From: an uncultured Alistipes sp. | GTDB taxonomy: Bacteria; Bacteroidota; Bacteroidia; Bacteroidales; Rikenellaceae | NCBI GenBank assembly: GCA_944320985.1 | Contig: CALUJN010000025.1 | Location: 1 to 59,897, forward strand | Reading direction: 5' to 3' | DNA length: 59,897 nucleotides | Shown here: positions 5,502 through 36,238 of the stretch, one piece after another | Layout: every line of letters starts with the position of its first letter | Numbering within the stretch: the first letter of the stretch is position 1 | Made by a program: the position numbers and the translations under genes | Notes under the pieces: generated by a model | Databases searched by the model: none | Seen by the model: only the letters and a program-made list of their open reading frames with translations | What the model was told of the DNA's origin: nothing

Positions 5502-5580
5502 GGGGGGGGTAGGTAGAGGTAGGCAGAGAGAGGCAGAGAGAGGCAGAGAGAGGCAGAGAGAGGCAGAGAGAGGCAGAGGT
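5502..5580 (+). repeat. 10-bp tandem purine repeat (aggcagagag)
   Basis: A run of nine G at about 5501-5509 is followed by seven 10-bp units: aggtagaggt at 5511, five exact copies of aggcagagag from 5521, and aggcagaggt at 5571. The array begins straight after the DUF4924 stop codon and precedes its terminator. Period and purity predict slippage and copy-number variation between strains. Confidence 0.9.
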
Positions 5581-23809: not shown

Positions 23810-25017
23810 GGCAGGGACAGGTACATAGCGGAAGCAAGGCCTCGGTTTCCGAAACGGATTCACAGACAATCAAAAAGAGCGATTCCCGGAATACAGTCCG
23901 GGGTTTGCAGGAGCACAAAAGTTCCGTACGGTCCGGAAAAGAGGCGTCGAACACCGGAGAATCGAACATGCTGCATCAGAGCACCGCGATCTCGGACCGT
24001 TCCGAGGCCGATCCGGCAGACGCAGGAGTCTCGGAAGGCACGGCGGTCTCAGATGACACGGCAGTTTCGGAGGGCACAGCAGTTTCGGGGGGTACTGCAG
24101 TTTCGAGAAGCGCGGGAGGCGATTCTCCAGCTCCGGTGAGTGATTCTCTTGCCTTCAGAAGGGACTCCCTGCACGCCACACCGCTCGAATCCTGGCACTT
24201 CTCCCATCTGGACTCCCTGTGTTTCGGATGGTGCGGCAAACGCCACGATGCAACTTCGGAGGTTTGCTGGCGCGACACCTCGGCAACGGCTCTCTTCGGG
24301 CACGAATCCTGTCTCGTACAACCCGAACGGATCGAACGCCCCGCCGGAGCCTCGCTCACGGATAACGCCGTATTTCAGGGCTTCGTGCTGCTGCTTGCGG
24401 CCACCTACGCCACACTCCTCTATCGGAATCTCGGAGACGTCAAGACCCTGCTGAACAGAATATCCCGCGAATCGGCCTCGGGAGAGCGCCTCAGCGAAGA
24501 GCCCGGAGCCAGCGGCTTCTCCCGGTTCCTGAATGTCTCGACGGCAATCGGCATGCTCTTCATGGGGGTCATCGTCGTCAAATACGGCGACACGCTCATG
24601 CCGCCCGAGCTCGGCAAGGCCCTCTCACACGGAGCCGTTCTCGCCCTGAGCCTCCTGGCAACTCTCGCCTGGTTCCTCATCATCCTCTTCCAGTCCTCGG
24701 CCATCCGGATTGCCGGAGCAATCACGCTCTCCCAAGATTTCATCACACAACTCGCCCTGTTGCGCCGAACCTATTTCGCACTCGCCGTCCTCATCACCTC
24801 GCCTCCTTTGCTGCTCTTCGCGCTCTGTCCCCGCGGAACCGGAGGCGTATGGTTCATCTGCGTGGCCGTGGAATTGATCATTACGGCCGTTTTATACCTT
24901 AAGGAATCCCTGAACCTCTTTATTTCTAAAAAAATTTCGATTTTGCATTGGTTTTTGTACCTTTGCACCGTAGAAGTCTTCCCAATCAGCCTTTTATGGC
25001 TCTTGGCGACAAGATGA
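23806..25017 (+). CDS. DUF4271 membrane protein with a repetitive N-terminal tail
   Basis: The C-terminal half (about 185-403) has five to six hydrophobic helices and fits DUF4271, a Bacteroidota family usually located just before hemD, as here. The first 180 residues are hydrophilic, Ser/Glu-rich and of low complexity, with a six-residue repeat (VSxxTA) four times at residues 75-98. I kept the ATG at 23806 because it overlaps the kinase stop as ATGA; a later start at 23968 is possible. Function is unknown. A promoter for hemD lies inside the 3' end. Confidence 0.75.
   Translation: MRQGQVHSGSKASVSETDSQTIKKSDSRNTVRGLQEHKSSVRSGKEASNTGESNMLHQSTAISDRSEADPADAGVSEGTAVSDDTAVSEGTAVSGGTAVSRSAGGDSPAPVSDSLAFRRDSLHATPLESWHFSHLDSLCFGWCGKRHDATSEVCWRDTSATALFGHESCLVQPERIERPAGASLTDNAVFQGFVLLLAATYATLLYRNLGDVKTLLNRISRESASGERLSEEPGASGFSRFLNVSTAIGMLFMGVIVVKYGDTLMPPELGKALSHGAVLALSLLATLAWFLIILFQSSAIRIAGAITLSQDFITQLALLRRTYFALAVLITSPPLLLFALCPRGTGGVWFICVAVELIITAVLYLKESLNLFISKKISILHWFLYLCTVEVFPISLLWLLATR
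24028..24117 (+). repeat. 18-bp coding minisatellite (VSxxTA)n
   Basis: Four 18-bp units (24028-24099) encode VSEGTA, VSDDTA, VSEGTA and VSGGTA, and a fifth (to 24117) is degenerate. Changes in copy number would keep the reading frame. Confidence 0.85.
24958..24965 (+). promoter_or_regulatory. -7 box (TACCTTTG) for hemD inside the DUF4271 gene
   Basis: An exact TAnnTTTG match in an AT-rich stretch near the end of the upstream gene. A TTTG lies only 12 bases before it, too close for the usual -33 spacing. The leader before hemD would be about 75 bases. Confidence 0.5.
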
Positions 25018-33439: not shown

Positions 33440-33447
33440 TACTTTTG
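33440..33447 (+). promoter_or_regulatory. -7 box (TACTTTTG) for rlmN
   Basis: An exact match 30 bases before the rlmN ATG, overlapping a TTG at 33445 that would otherwise give a longer frame. It supports the start at 33478. Confidence 0.6.
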
Positions 33448-33477
33448 TCTCCGGAAACAAAACCGTCTGATGCAAAA

Positions 33478-34506
33478 ATGACCGCTCCGGAGTCGTTGTA
33501 CGGGAAAAATCCCGAAGAAATCGCCGCCCTCTGCAACGAGTTGGGCATGCCGCGCTTCTCGGCCCGGCAGATCGTCCGCTGGCTCTACGTACGACACGTG
33601 GAGGACCCCCTGCAAATGACCGACCTCTCGGCTGCAAACAGGCAACGCCTGGCCGAACGGTTTACCCCCGTCCTCTCCGCGCCGGAGCGCGAAACCCGCT
33701 CCGCAGACGGAACCAAGAAATACCTCTTCCGCACCCTCGAAGGACACTTCATCGAATCGGCATACATCCCCGACGGAGAGCGCGCCACGCTCTGTGTCTC
33801 CTCGCAGGCCGGATGCCGGATGGGGTGCCGTTTCTGCGCCACGGGGCGTCAGGGTCTCCAACAGTCGCTCTCGGCAGCCGAAATCCTTAACCAGATCGTC
33901 TCCCTGCCCGAACGCGACCGACTCACGAACCTCGTCTTCATGGGAATGGGTGAACCGCTCGACAATCTGGACAATGTGCTGCGGGCCCTTGAAATCCTTA
34001 CGGCCGAGTGGGGATTCGCCTGGTCCCCGACCCGCATCACCCTCTCCACGGCCGGTGTCGTACCCCATTTGCGTCGTTTCCTCGACCTCTCGAAGGTCCA
34101 TCTGGCCGTCAGTCTCCACAACCCCTTTGCGGACGAACGCGCCGAAATCATGCCCGTCGAAAAGGCCTGGCCCATCGCTCAGGTGGTCGATATTCTGCGT
34201 GAATACGATTTCACCCACCAGCGAAGGGTCTCGTTTGAATACATCGTCATGAGCGGGCTGAACGACTCGCCCCGACACATCCGCGAACTCTCGCGCCTGT
34301 TGAACGGAATCAAGTGCAGGATCAATCTGATCCGTTTCCACAAAATACCCGATTCTCCCTATTTCTCACCCGATTCCGAAGCGATGATCCGATTCCGCGA
34401 TGCGTTGACGGCCCGCGGTATTCAAACCACCATCCGTGCCTCCCGCGGCGAGGACATCCAAGCTGCCTGCGGACTGTTAAGCACCCGGCTAAGAGCCGGG
34501 ATTTAG
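33478..34506 (+). CDS. rlmN: 23S rRNA (adenine2503-C2)-methyltransferase RlmN
   Basis: The 342-residue radical SAM enzyme methylates A2503 of 23S rRNA and A37 of some tRNAs. The cluster cysteines are C113, C117 and C120 (CRMGCRFC). The two mechanistic cysteines are C106 and C331 (AACGLLS), spaced as in E. coli. The N-terminal helical domain contains FSARQIVRWLYVR. The last codons (encoding RLRAGI) and the stop TAG at 34504 lie within the first unit of the 65-bp repeat array, so the repeat forms the C-terminal tail. The promoter box at 33440 fixes the ATG at 33478. Confidence 0.94.
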   Translation: MTAPESLYGKNPEEIAALCNELGMPRFSARQIVRWLYVRHVEDPLQMTDLSAANRQRLAERFTPVLSAPERETRSADGTKKYLFRTLEGHFIESAYIPDGERATLCVSSQAGCRMGCRFCATGRQGLQQSLSAAEILNQIVSLPERDRLTNLVFMGMGEPLDNLDNVLRALEILTAEWGFAWSPTRITLSTAGVVPHLRRFLDLSKVHLAVSLHNPFADERAEIMPVEKAWPIAQVVDILREYDFTHQRRVSFEYIVMSGLNDSPRHIRELSRLLNGIKCRINLIRFHKIPDSPYFSPDSEAMIRFRDALTARGIQTTIRASRGEDIQAACGLLSTRLRAGI

Positions 34507-34898
34507 AGGGCAATAGATGCTGCATCGGGATTCCGGACCCCTCACCGCCCCGGCTAAGAGCCGGGCTTTAGAGGGCAATAGATGCTGCACCGGGATTCCG
34601 AACCTCACTCCGCCCCGGCCACGAGCCGGGCTTTAGAGGGCAATAGATACTGTACCGGGATTCCGGACCCCGCTCCGTCCCAGCCACAAGCTGGGCTTTA
34701 GAGGACAATAGATACTGTACCGGGATTCCGGACCTCACTCCGCCCCGGCCACGAGCTGGGCTTTAGAGGACAATAGATACTGTACCGGGATTCCGGACCC
34801 CGCTCCGCCCCGGCTAAGAGTCGGGCTTTAGAGGGCAAAGGTTGCGACATCGGGATTCCGGCACTCATTGCGCTCCGGCCAGAGACCGGACTTTAAAT
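34484..34898 (+). repeat. Tandem 65-bp repeat array with a covarying hairpin in each unit
   Basis: Six full 65-bp units begin at 34484, 34549, 34614, 34679, 34744 and 34809, and a truncated seventh begins at 34874. Each opens with a palindrome such as cccggct-aag-agccggg, then cttTAGAGGGCAATAGAT and a second short palindrome ccgg-gatt-ccgg. Stem changes are paired: unit 4 has cccagc/gctggg, unit 7 has tccgg/ccgga, and units 5 and 6 keep G-U pairs. The period is not a multiple of three and no long frame crosses it, so it is not coding beyond the rlmN tail. There are no unique spacers as in CRISPR. It fills most of the 474-bp gap between rlmN and rsmG; 34899-34980 holds nothing obvious. Confidence 0.95.
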
Positions 34899-34980
34899 TA
34901 GAGGAGAGGAGCAAGTGAAAGCAACCGACAAAAAAGATTGAGTCGGCATATAACCAATACGAAAAACAAGCCGAAGAATC

Positions 34981-35631
34981 CTAAAAGCGGTTTTCCAAAC
35001 CGCTCACCGAGGTATAGACAACTTTCTTTGTCTCGAAGAAGGGATCGTCGAAGAATTCCGAAATCGAATAGAGCCGCCACCGTTTGCCCGTGCGAGCCAG
35101 CTCCTCGGCCAGATCGCCGCCCTTCAGGTAAAGGATGCCGTTGGGCAAAGTGCCTTTCTGTCCCGGCTCGATCTTCTTCCAGATCCACGAGACGAACTCC
35201 GGCATCGCCGTTACAGCCCGCGAAACCACGTAGTCGAAGCGCTCCTGCAGTGTCTCGACCCGCACGCACCGCGGCGTCACGTTCTCCAGACCCAGACTCC
35301 GTGCCACACCCTCGACCACCGTGATCTTCTTGCGGATCGAGTCCGCCGCCGTAAAGTGCGCCTCCGGGAAGAGGATCGCCAGCGGAATCGACGGAAAGCC
35401 GCCTCCGCATCCCACATCGAGAATCCGTGCCCCGGCATCGAACCGGCAAACCTTCGCAATAGCCAGCGAATGAAGCACATGACGCACATAAAGTTGATCG
35501 AAATCCTTGCGCGAAACCACATTGATCTTCGCATTCCACTCGGCATAGAGGTCGTACAATGCGGCAAGACGCTCTCGCTGAAGGGCGTCGAGTTCAGGAA
35601 AGTATTCGTAGATCTTCTCCAGGTCGGTCAT
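34981..35631 (-). CDS. rsmG: 16S rRNA (guanine527-N7)-methyltransferase RsmG
   Basis: The 216-residue Rossmann-fold enzyme uses SAM to methylate G527 of 16S rRNA. The SAM motif is ILDVGCGGGFPSIPLAILFP, preceded by NVVSRKDFDQLYVRHVLHSL, both RsmG hallmarks; YVVSRAVTAMPEF follows. The ATG at 35631 fits the family; an upstream start at 35697 would add a basic tail that overlaps the sigma-factor gene. Its 3' end faces the repeat array. Confidence 0.95.
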   Translation of the reverse strand: MTDLEKIYEYFPELDALQRERLAALYDLYAEWNAKINVVSRKDFDQLYVRHVLHSLAIAKVCRFDAGARILDVGCGGGFPSIPLAILFPEAHFTAADSIRKKITVVEGVARSLGLENVTPRCVRVETLQERFDYVVSRAVTAMPEFVSWIWKKIEPGQKGTLPNGILYLKGGDLAEELARTGKRWRLYSISEFFDDPFFETKKVVYTSVSGLENRF

Positions 35632-35674
35632 CGTCGTTTCTGTTTTTTCGGTTCGGATTCGCCGCCGGGCTCCT

Positions 35675-36238
35675 TCACCGGCTCTCGCCCTCGGCAATCA
35701 GGCGGCACATCTGCTCCCGGGCCCGGTGGATCTGCGTCTTCACAGTCCCCAACGGCAGCGAAAGTTTCGCCGCAATCTCCTCGTAGGAGTATTCGTCAAA
35801 GAAGCGCATCACGATCAGCTGCCGATAGCGGGGGGCCAATCGTTCGAGGTAATGTTCGATCTGCGTCCGCTGCTGCAGGTTGATGACACTCTCCTCCGGA
35901 GTCGGAGCATTCGAGGCCGGAGCCGCAAAACGATCGTCGATCGACAGATCATCCTGCCGACGGCGCACGAAGTCAATGAACGTGTTCCGCGCAATCGTGT
36001 AGACCCATTGTCCGAAGGTATAATCCTTGCTATAGCGATGCAGGTTGATATAGACCTTGATGAAGGTCTCCTGCAACAGATCGTCGGCATCGTTCGTGCC
36101 TCCGAGCCGCTGCACGAAGAGACGGTGAATCGCATCCCGATAGCGGTTGAACAGATACTCGAAGGCCGTATCGTCCCCCTGGAGCGTCCGTACCACCAGA
36201 TCCCGGTCTTCGGCTACGATATAGTCGGCTATCTCCAT
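35675..36238 (-). CDS. ECF-type RNA polymerase sigma factor
   Basis: The 187-residue protein has sigma region 2 (AFEYLFNRYRDAIHRLFVQR, DADDLLQETFIKVY, WVYTIARNTFIDFVRRR) and region 4 (YRQLIVMRFFDEYSYEEIA, LPLGTVKTQIHRAREQM). No anti-sigma factor or SusC/D pair is adjacent, so the stimulus and regulon are unknown. The ATG at 36238 overlaps the end of the upstream glycosyltransferase gene by ten bases, indicating one operon, with rsmG 43 bases downstream. Confidence 0.92.
   Translation of the reverse strand: MEIADYIVAEDRDLVVRTLQGDDTAFEYLFNRYRDAIHRLFVQRLGGTNDADDLLQETFIKVYINLHRYSKDYTFGQWVYTIARNTFIDFVRRRQDDLSIDDRFAAPASNAPTPEESVINLQQRTQIEHYLERLAPRYRQLIVMRFFDEYSYEEIAAKLSLPLGTVKTQIHRAREQMCRLIAEGESR

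Follow-up and report, generated by a model that had tools for sequence, protein, structure and literature searches.

A 65-bp Tandem Array at the 3′ End of rlmN and a REP-Like Family of TAAGA Hairpins in Alistipes

The rlmN–rsmG Region and Its Array

The window, a stretch of 59,897 nucleotides from an uncultured Alistipes sp. (contig CALUJN010000025.1), contains the reading frames of rlmN on the forward strand and of rsmG on the reverse strand, so that the tandem array between them sits in a convergent gap (Table 1). As delimited by Tandem Repeats Finder, this array covers 34484-34895, with a period of 65, 6.3 copies, 85% matches and no indels, which amounts to six complete units (34484-34873) followed by a seventh hairpin starting at 34874, as the original prediction had stated. 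The units are alike over their 65 columns, with a mean column identity of 90%; a CRISPR array, which would have spacers between its repeats, was thus discarded, in agreement with the earlier reading. The palindrome opening every unit, the altered stems of unit 4 (CCCAGC/GCTGGG) and unit 7 (TCCGG/CCGGA) and the single G-U pair in each of units 5 and 6 were likewise found as described. The array had also been called non-coding, which stands except for unit 1, as this holds the end of rlmN up to 34506 and its stop codon: hairpin 1 encodes most of the last residues of RlmN (...RLRAG), and the TAG stop follows directly, in ATTTAG.

Table 1. Coordinates of the array, its units and the flanking genes in the window.
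Feature	Position	Strand	Description
rlmN reading frame	33445..34506	+	ORF; NCBIfam TIGR00048 RlmN, 337 bits (cut-off 290); last six codons (RLRAGI) and TAG stop inside unit 1
Unit 1	34484..34548	+	Hairpin 34484-34500, CCCGGC-TAAGA-GCCGGG, then ATTTAGAGGGC
Second small palindrome, unit 1 (TCGGGATTCCGG)	34525..34536	+	Again every 65 bp in units 2-6
Unit 2	34549..34613	+	Hairpin CCCGGC-TAAGA-GCCGGG; RNA model match, E 8.0e-7
Unit 3	34614..34678	+	Hairpin CCCGGC-CACGA-GCCGGG; loop changed
Unit 4	34679..34743	+	Hairpin CCCAGC-CACAA-GCTGGG; paired change, G-C to A-T
Unit 5	34744..34808	+	Hairpin CCCGGC-CACGA-GCTGGG; one G.T pair
Unit 6	34809..34873	+	Hairpin CCCGGC-TAAGA-GTCGGG; one G.T pair
Truncated unit 7	34874..34898	+	Hairpin TCCGG...CCGGA plus CTTTAAAT
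rsmG (gidB) reading frame	34981..35697	-	ORF; NCBIfam TIGR00138 RsmG, 110 bits (cut-off 99.5)

Regarding its folding, the array as a whole is more stable than 100 of 100 shuffles (z -3.4), and hairpin 1 (17 nt) has a folding energy of -11.9 kcal/mol (z -3.8), while the individual 65-nt units fold weakly better than shuffles or no better (z -1.7 to +0.7). The loop is TAAGA in units 1, 2 and 6 and CACGA or CACAA in units 3-5, the loop-closing T-A having become C-A in three of the six. A single stem pair changed on both sides among the six units, a count equalled by 258 of 500 shuffles, and since pairing and covariation are no better than those of shuffled columns, the array alone is no proof of selection on the fold. 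The second palindrome (CCGGGATTCCGG) does recur in six of six units, as had been noticed, but its outer pair is C-G in only three of them, U-G in two and broken in one, with one-sided changes only.

No Rfam match reaches the gathering score inside the array, and the three sub-threshold matches around it leave none within; a search of eight related loci returned tRNAs only. A match to the DnaX frameshift element at 34916-34979 (19.6 bits, against a gathering score of 35) is probably due to chance. Other short tandem repeats of the window are found at 5521-5578 (AGGCAGAGAG, 5.8 copies), 24023-24105 (an 18-mer, 4.6 copies) and 2288-2348 (a purine-rich 18-mer, 3.4 copies).

A Dispersed Hairpin Family Within One Genus

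When the 415-bp array was used as a query against its own genome (G000) and 100 relatives, matches were obtained in six of the 101 genomes, at six places in G053, two in G032 and two in G012. Within G000 this whole-array DNA search returned only the array itself, the link to other copies being made through the relatives and a covariance model. The loci so matched and 400 kb of G053, when read, contained many hairpins that share the TAAGA loop but differ in their stems. In the 400 kb, TAAGA was the loop of 32 palindromes of this build (stem 6 bp, loop 5 nt), the runner-up loop occurring five times. The family core can be written as N6-TAAGA-N6'-NTTTA(G/T)GGGC, the unit comprising a variable 6-bp stem, the constant TAAGA (an AAG triloop closed by T-A), the NTTTA(G/T)GGGC segment and a tail of about 50 nt. 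A pattern made of loop and tail (TAAGA N7 TTTA(G/T)GGGC) gave 119 matches in 12 of 121 genomes of the genus, seven of them in G000, against five for the reversed pattern used as control.

The covariance model R1, built from 30 copies, gave at E<=1 at least 113 matches in G126, 86 in G053, 72 in G117, 65 in G151, 55 in G128, 47 in G023, 30 in G106 and 29 in the own genome, all of these being lower bounds. Among the 30 genomes tested, 11 have a best E of 1e-5 or lower, each with at least 8 to at least 113 matches at E<=1, and five, G150 among them, have no match at that threshold. The counts at E<=1 include weak matches, as in G125 (at least 26, best E 0.104), G003 (at least 21), G060 (at least 14) and G015 (at least 11), the best E ranging from 0.006 to 0.39. 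The training set of R1 was mostly picked for perfect stems, a bias avoided only in the loop-plus-tail counts. At E<=1e-5, 12 matches were found in G000, three in the array and nine elsewhere.

With stricter filters, the model has no match at E<=1e-5 in any of 197 other genomes of the order. Across 84,980 GTDB species, a scan by a strict pattern (CC..GG ends, TTTTA), which leaves looser forms outside and may omit records very near the genome of the window, returned 54 stretches, 54 of them titled Alistipes; the isolate Alistipes sp. An66 is one carrier of the hairpins. Within the genus, G012, G060 and G007 have weaker relatives in which the core is kept and the flanks differ. The 1.8-Mb genome G012 (L246-L254) has at least 113 model matches at E<=1, and in the stretches read from it CCCCGT/ACGGGG is the most frequent stem and the flanks are entirely unlike the others, as in a separate lineage of the same hairpin core. 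No published account of the TAAGA hairpin family was found in open PMC full texts.

Orthologous Copies at rlmN and thiL

The 3′ ends of rlmN were read by eye in 30 genomes. A hairpin lies at the stop codon in G000 and G106, with the stem CCCGGC/GCCGGG, and in G013 and G126, with CCCGCC/GGCGGG, while in G053 a CCCGCT-TAAAA-AGCGGG hairpin stands somewhat beyond the stop. The hairpin looks decayed in G042 and G032 and cut off in G117, G151 and G023; the other 20 of the 30 genomes have no TAAGA hairpin at the end of rlmN, G020 having a different palindrome with the loop TTAG. As the RlmN tree joins G013 and G106 as sisters (99/95), their stems represent a paired swap (G-C/C-G) between near relatives at one site. 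The rlmN end of G106 also carries an array, of 68 bp and 4.8 copies, one unit of which is broken (CCCGGC/GACGGG).

A second array of the own genome (G000:C7, L043), 80 bp in 2.6 copies, starts from the stop codon of thiL (TIGR01379) and has a counterpart of 78 bp and 2.9 copies in G106, so that two species have tandem arrays at both rlmN and thiL. The TAA within the loop doubles as the thiL stop codon in G000, G042, G053, G117 and G013 (five of the 22 loci parsed), plus G106, which was read from L241 as one of the six of 28 loci left unparsed; two of the 30 genomes have only a distant thiL relative. The thiL stems are GAGGCT, CAGGCT or CCCGGC, fully paired, in five species, and CCTGGC with one T.G pair in the sixth. 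In the thiL array of G000, units 2 and 3 of the three have unmatched stems, against the pairing rule.

The recurrence of the rlmN and thiL arrays in a second species, together with the dispersal of the family and the excess of paired substitutions treated below, indicates that the unit is not confined to this array, as the original prediction required. It also bears on the reading of the array as a plain slippage satellite, i.e., a captured chance hairpin with neither function nor family. The exact period, the absence of indels and the lack of significant covariation in the array alone agree with such an origin, but the dispersed copies, their paired stems and the orthologous arrays refute it as a full account, which is hardly probable at all, slippage being the likely origin of the tandem copies.

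Genomic Context and Relation to REP Sequences

Among 118 copies placed with a home-made gene caller, 23 begin, in sense, no more than 30 nt past a stop codon, one has its tail facing a gene 3′ end that closely and four lie beside gene starts. This sense bias is in part a matter of geometry, since antisense hairpins are kept off gene ends by their own 50-nt tail. There are copies that border directly on a stop codon and others that provide one themselves. Copies are held by 18 of 88 convergent gaps, 30 of 277 same-direction gaps and 10 of 110 divergent gaps, many of the loci having been fetched because they hold copies. The units occur singly, as direct repeats, often of 63-73 bp, and in inverted clusters: the same-strand spacing is 63-73 bp for 6 of 26 neighbours in three genomes and for 10 of 17 in G106, which puts the 65 bp of the array near a common unit length of the family, and the opposite-strand spacing is 125-130 bp for 10 of 29.

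This placement agrees with ordinary RNA-level selection, according to which the hairpins would act as terminator-like or decay-blocking RNA at gene 3′ ends, their stems drifting by stepwise compensation. The 23 sense copies close after a stop codon, the more frequent occupation of convergent gaps and the composition of the stems, C-rich on the 5′ side and G-rich on the 3′ side and then followed by TTTA, are in keeping with it. The T tract, however, is short, and the only terminator-like hairpin of the array is number 7, one site found by the scan against 1.0 expected by chance. An intrinsic terminator (at least five T in eight) was rejected, as 31 of 31 TAAGA-type gene-end hairpins have at most four T in the next 8 nt; among the 467 hairpins picked at gene ends in all, 48 have at least five. 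Gut Bacteroidetes structured-RNA candidates described in PMC8040213 are similarly palindromic and intergenic and belong to the same phylum, most being predicted terminators and some possibly REPs.

By the definition in PMC12306157, REPs are extragenic, palindromic and short, with multiple copies per genome and a highly similar common motif. As for the general properties, 112 of 119 rows of a context table, from which three copies with fewer than five pairs were left out, lie outside called genes (own gene caller, the first hairpin of the array being counted twice), the palindrome measures 17 bp and strongly matching genomes hold at least 8 to at least 113 matches. The GTAG and CGTC REPs, as presented in PMC3733652, are short extragenic palindromes, uneven among species, clustered, in opposite orientations and near gene 3′ ends; the Alistipes hairpins share this layout, and GTAG REP termini also often supply the stop codon and their stems vary within families. 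Thus, the Alistipes hairpins are a REP-like family in layout, with short palindromes, several to more than 100 per genome, mostly intergenic and in tandem and inverted clusters, which supports, as regards layout, the REP/BIME-like nature first proposed.

Unlike those REPs, the Alistipes hairpins carry no tag, having instead the constant TAAGA loop and the 3′ flank NTTTA(G/T)GGGC, are found with no RAYT domain and have few G-T pairs, whose frequency is cited in PMC3733652 as a sign of transcription. Pseudomonas REPINs and tandem REP arrays (PMC3116915) are alike in their inverted pairs, tandem arrays and compensatory changes in a long hairpin, but consist of conserved 16-mers with variable spacers tied to RAYTs, whereas the Alistipes hairpins have a variable short stem and a constant loop. 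A REPIN replicates as an inverted pair; in Alistipes the opposite-strand peak at 125-130 bp stands beside same-strand units at 63-73 bp.

The original prediction had also pointed to a REP-associated tyrosine transposase (RAYT), which would move such a REP/BIME family in trans. The REP-like layout, intergenic and palindromic, with clusters in both orientations and copies at stop codons, and the bunching of opposite-strand spacings at 125-130 bp would fit it. Nevertheless, the Y1_Tnp domain (PF01797) was found in one of the 30 genomes searched, several of which are incomplete and which leave G012 and G007 outside, and not in any of the 11 that match the hairpin strongly, G023 being one of these and 99% complete; moreover, neither a GTAG nor a CGTC tag is present, the 5′ flank holding 0.02-0.36 bit per position. 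This reading is therefore very unlikely, and that part of the prediction is not supported. The sole Y1 transposase domain among the 30 genomes of the genus lies in G116 (G116:C20:13102-13458, L123), which has no match to the hairpin model.

In G053, palindromes of the form TCATTCCCGC..GCGGGAATCCA, resembling the CGTC REPs of PMC3733652, are interleaved with TAAGA hairpins, with varying stems (L026 9551-10450, L027 11251-12600, L014 5751-6400). As the CGTC REPs are described in that paper as having no known transposase, a shared unknown mover is possible.

Pairing of the Stem and Its Mode of Change

Considering 191 distinct copies anchored on loop and tail only (those near a locus edge, with fewer than 46 bases before the loop or fewer than 75 from its start onwards, being skipped), 168 have six of six Watson-Crick pairs, 15 have one non-Watson-Crick pair, four have two, three have three and one has four. 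When the right arms were re-dealt in 500 rounds, perfect stems averaged 19.2, with a maximum of 34, and sliding the arm by 1-3 bases gave none. The loop is TAAGA in 179 copies and TAAAA in 12, as searched for, and the perfect stems are of 21 kinds; loop and tail are therefore conserved, in part through how the copies were found, and the stem is not. In this sense the initial statement that the loop varies freely holds locally, in units 3-5, and is reversed for the family, where TAAGA is the constant part and the stem is free but paired.

Alignment A2, which reduces the 191 copies to 83 different 27-mers whose tails are of fixed length, at least one of them probably a chance match (L052), has 96.2% of its cells paired against 68.7% when shuffled, and a covariation of 0.677 against 0.169, with none of 500 shuffles as high; its six pairs with a double change, equalled in 220 of 500 shuffles, are not informative. 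The array is confirmed, and the claim that paired changes preserve a structure finds its support in the family, not in the array.

Substitutions that come in pairs are commonly regarded as proving selection on RNA. Stepwise compensation through G-U is expected to favour transitions and to leave wobble pairs behind. Among the 1122 pairs of the 191 copies, except for four copies with more than two mismatches, 23 are not Watson-Crick, comprising eight G-T/T-G, four A-C/C-A and 11 others; wobble asymmetry was discarded as proof of RNA selection, the mismatches being too few. Copies whose tails are at least 90% similar but whose upstream flanks are unlike form 44 pairs: in 33 the stems are distinguished by paired changes alone (three pairs in 16 of them), in nine they are identical and in two one side differs. 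In the converse group, similar upstream and dissimilar in the tail, the 157 pairs divide into 93 with paired changes alone, 36 without any change and 28 in which some change is one-sided. When only perfect copies are taken, the like-tail group (41 pairs) has 76 pair changes, of which 44 are C-G/G-C flips, 19 transitions and 13 others, and the like-upstream group has 105 flips, 71 transitions and 38 others. The copy pairs are not independent; when they are grouped into 19 clusters by tail and 25 by upstream flank, 11 clusters of either set contain more than one perfect stem. In addition, a palindromic module ending in TGGCACCTTTTGCCACCAAAAGGTG abuts the 5′ edge of 16 TAAGA copies with five different perfect stems, as if inserting at hairpins.

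Returning to RNA-level selection, it counts in its favour that unit 5 could represent a wobble intermediate and unit 4 the compensated state. The excess of wobbles over A-C/C-A pairs (8 against 4) is small, however, and the flips exceed the transitions 44 to 19, so that, weighed with its points at gene ends, this explanation appears unlikely. With few wobbles and more flips than transitions, a rewriting of the arms at the DNA level or an exchange of whole hairpins may be inferred, the counted pairs being interrelated; the small wobble excess and the predominance of flips argue for the DNA level no less than for RNA, a new repeat RNA or a 3′ stability element, also named at first, being putative only, and the paired stem changes look more like DNA-level rewriting, by template switching or hairpin exchange, than like stepwise RNA compensation, as far as sequence comparison can tell. 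Since the stems differ by several pairs at once, mostly flips, with flanks little changed, the usual inference of RNA selection becomes testable here against a DNA-level mechanism.

Template-switch hairpins, as treated in PMC8794818, are similar in their perfect stems and in multi-base paired changes without wobble intermediates. They differ in that the mechanism has been shown there in RNA genes, by ancestral reconstruction, and is putative in Alistipes, and in that 61.0% of the one-step compensatory changes of rRNA are given there as of the transition type, transitions being fewer in Alistipes (19 of 76).

Proposed Origin, Upkeep and Role of the Array

The explanation preferred here is that the array is a tandem-amplified member of an Alistipes-restricted REP-like family, often at gene 3′ ends; judged jointly with the amplification, stem upkeep and mRNA role proposed for it, this account is reasonably probable. 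As deduced from the DNA sequence, function and mechanism would be as follows. The array would have grown by slippage or unequal crossing-over between units. At replication, DNA hairpins could form in which one arm templates the other (template switching), which would keep the stems perfect; alternatively, whole hairpins may be exchanged between copies and selection may remove the broken ones. In the mRNA of rlmN, hairpin 1, lying over the gene end, could slow terminating ribosomes or block 3′ exonucleases, and the further units would add a structured 3′ end between the two convergent genes. In E. coli, REPs lying no more than 15 nt from a stop codon have been reported to stall ribosomes (an earlier study cited in PMC12306157), and hairpin 1 likewise lies within 15 nt of the rlmN stop; however, the sequences are unrelated, the thiL stop lies inside the loop, and stalling by the Alistipes hairpins is putative.

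Against this account of a tandem-amplified REP-like hairpin count the absence of any mobile intermediate or recombinase among what was found, the two G-U stem pairs of the array, with no A-C, as RNA selection would also give, the broken stems inside arrays and the one-sided stem differences in 28 of the 157 like-upstream pairs. Template switching alone fails to explain the faster turnover of the stem than of the tail. A further reading, tentative and rather doubtful, is that of a hairpin without a known transposase, whose identity would reside in its shape, the TAAGA loop and the short tail and not in the letters of the stem, both arms of the stem being rewritten together, several pairs at once and faster than the flanks on both sides. 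If true, it would be either a natural showcase, in living genomes, of template-switch "instant compensation" or a recombination system that recognises structure and exchanges hairpins at the ends of genes. The TAAGA family is a marker of gene ends, including stop codons, within part of a common gut genus, and rlmN and thiL are ready loci for testing the action of REP-like hairpins without a known RAYT.
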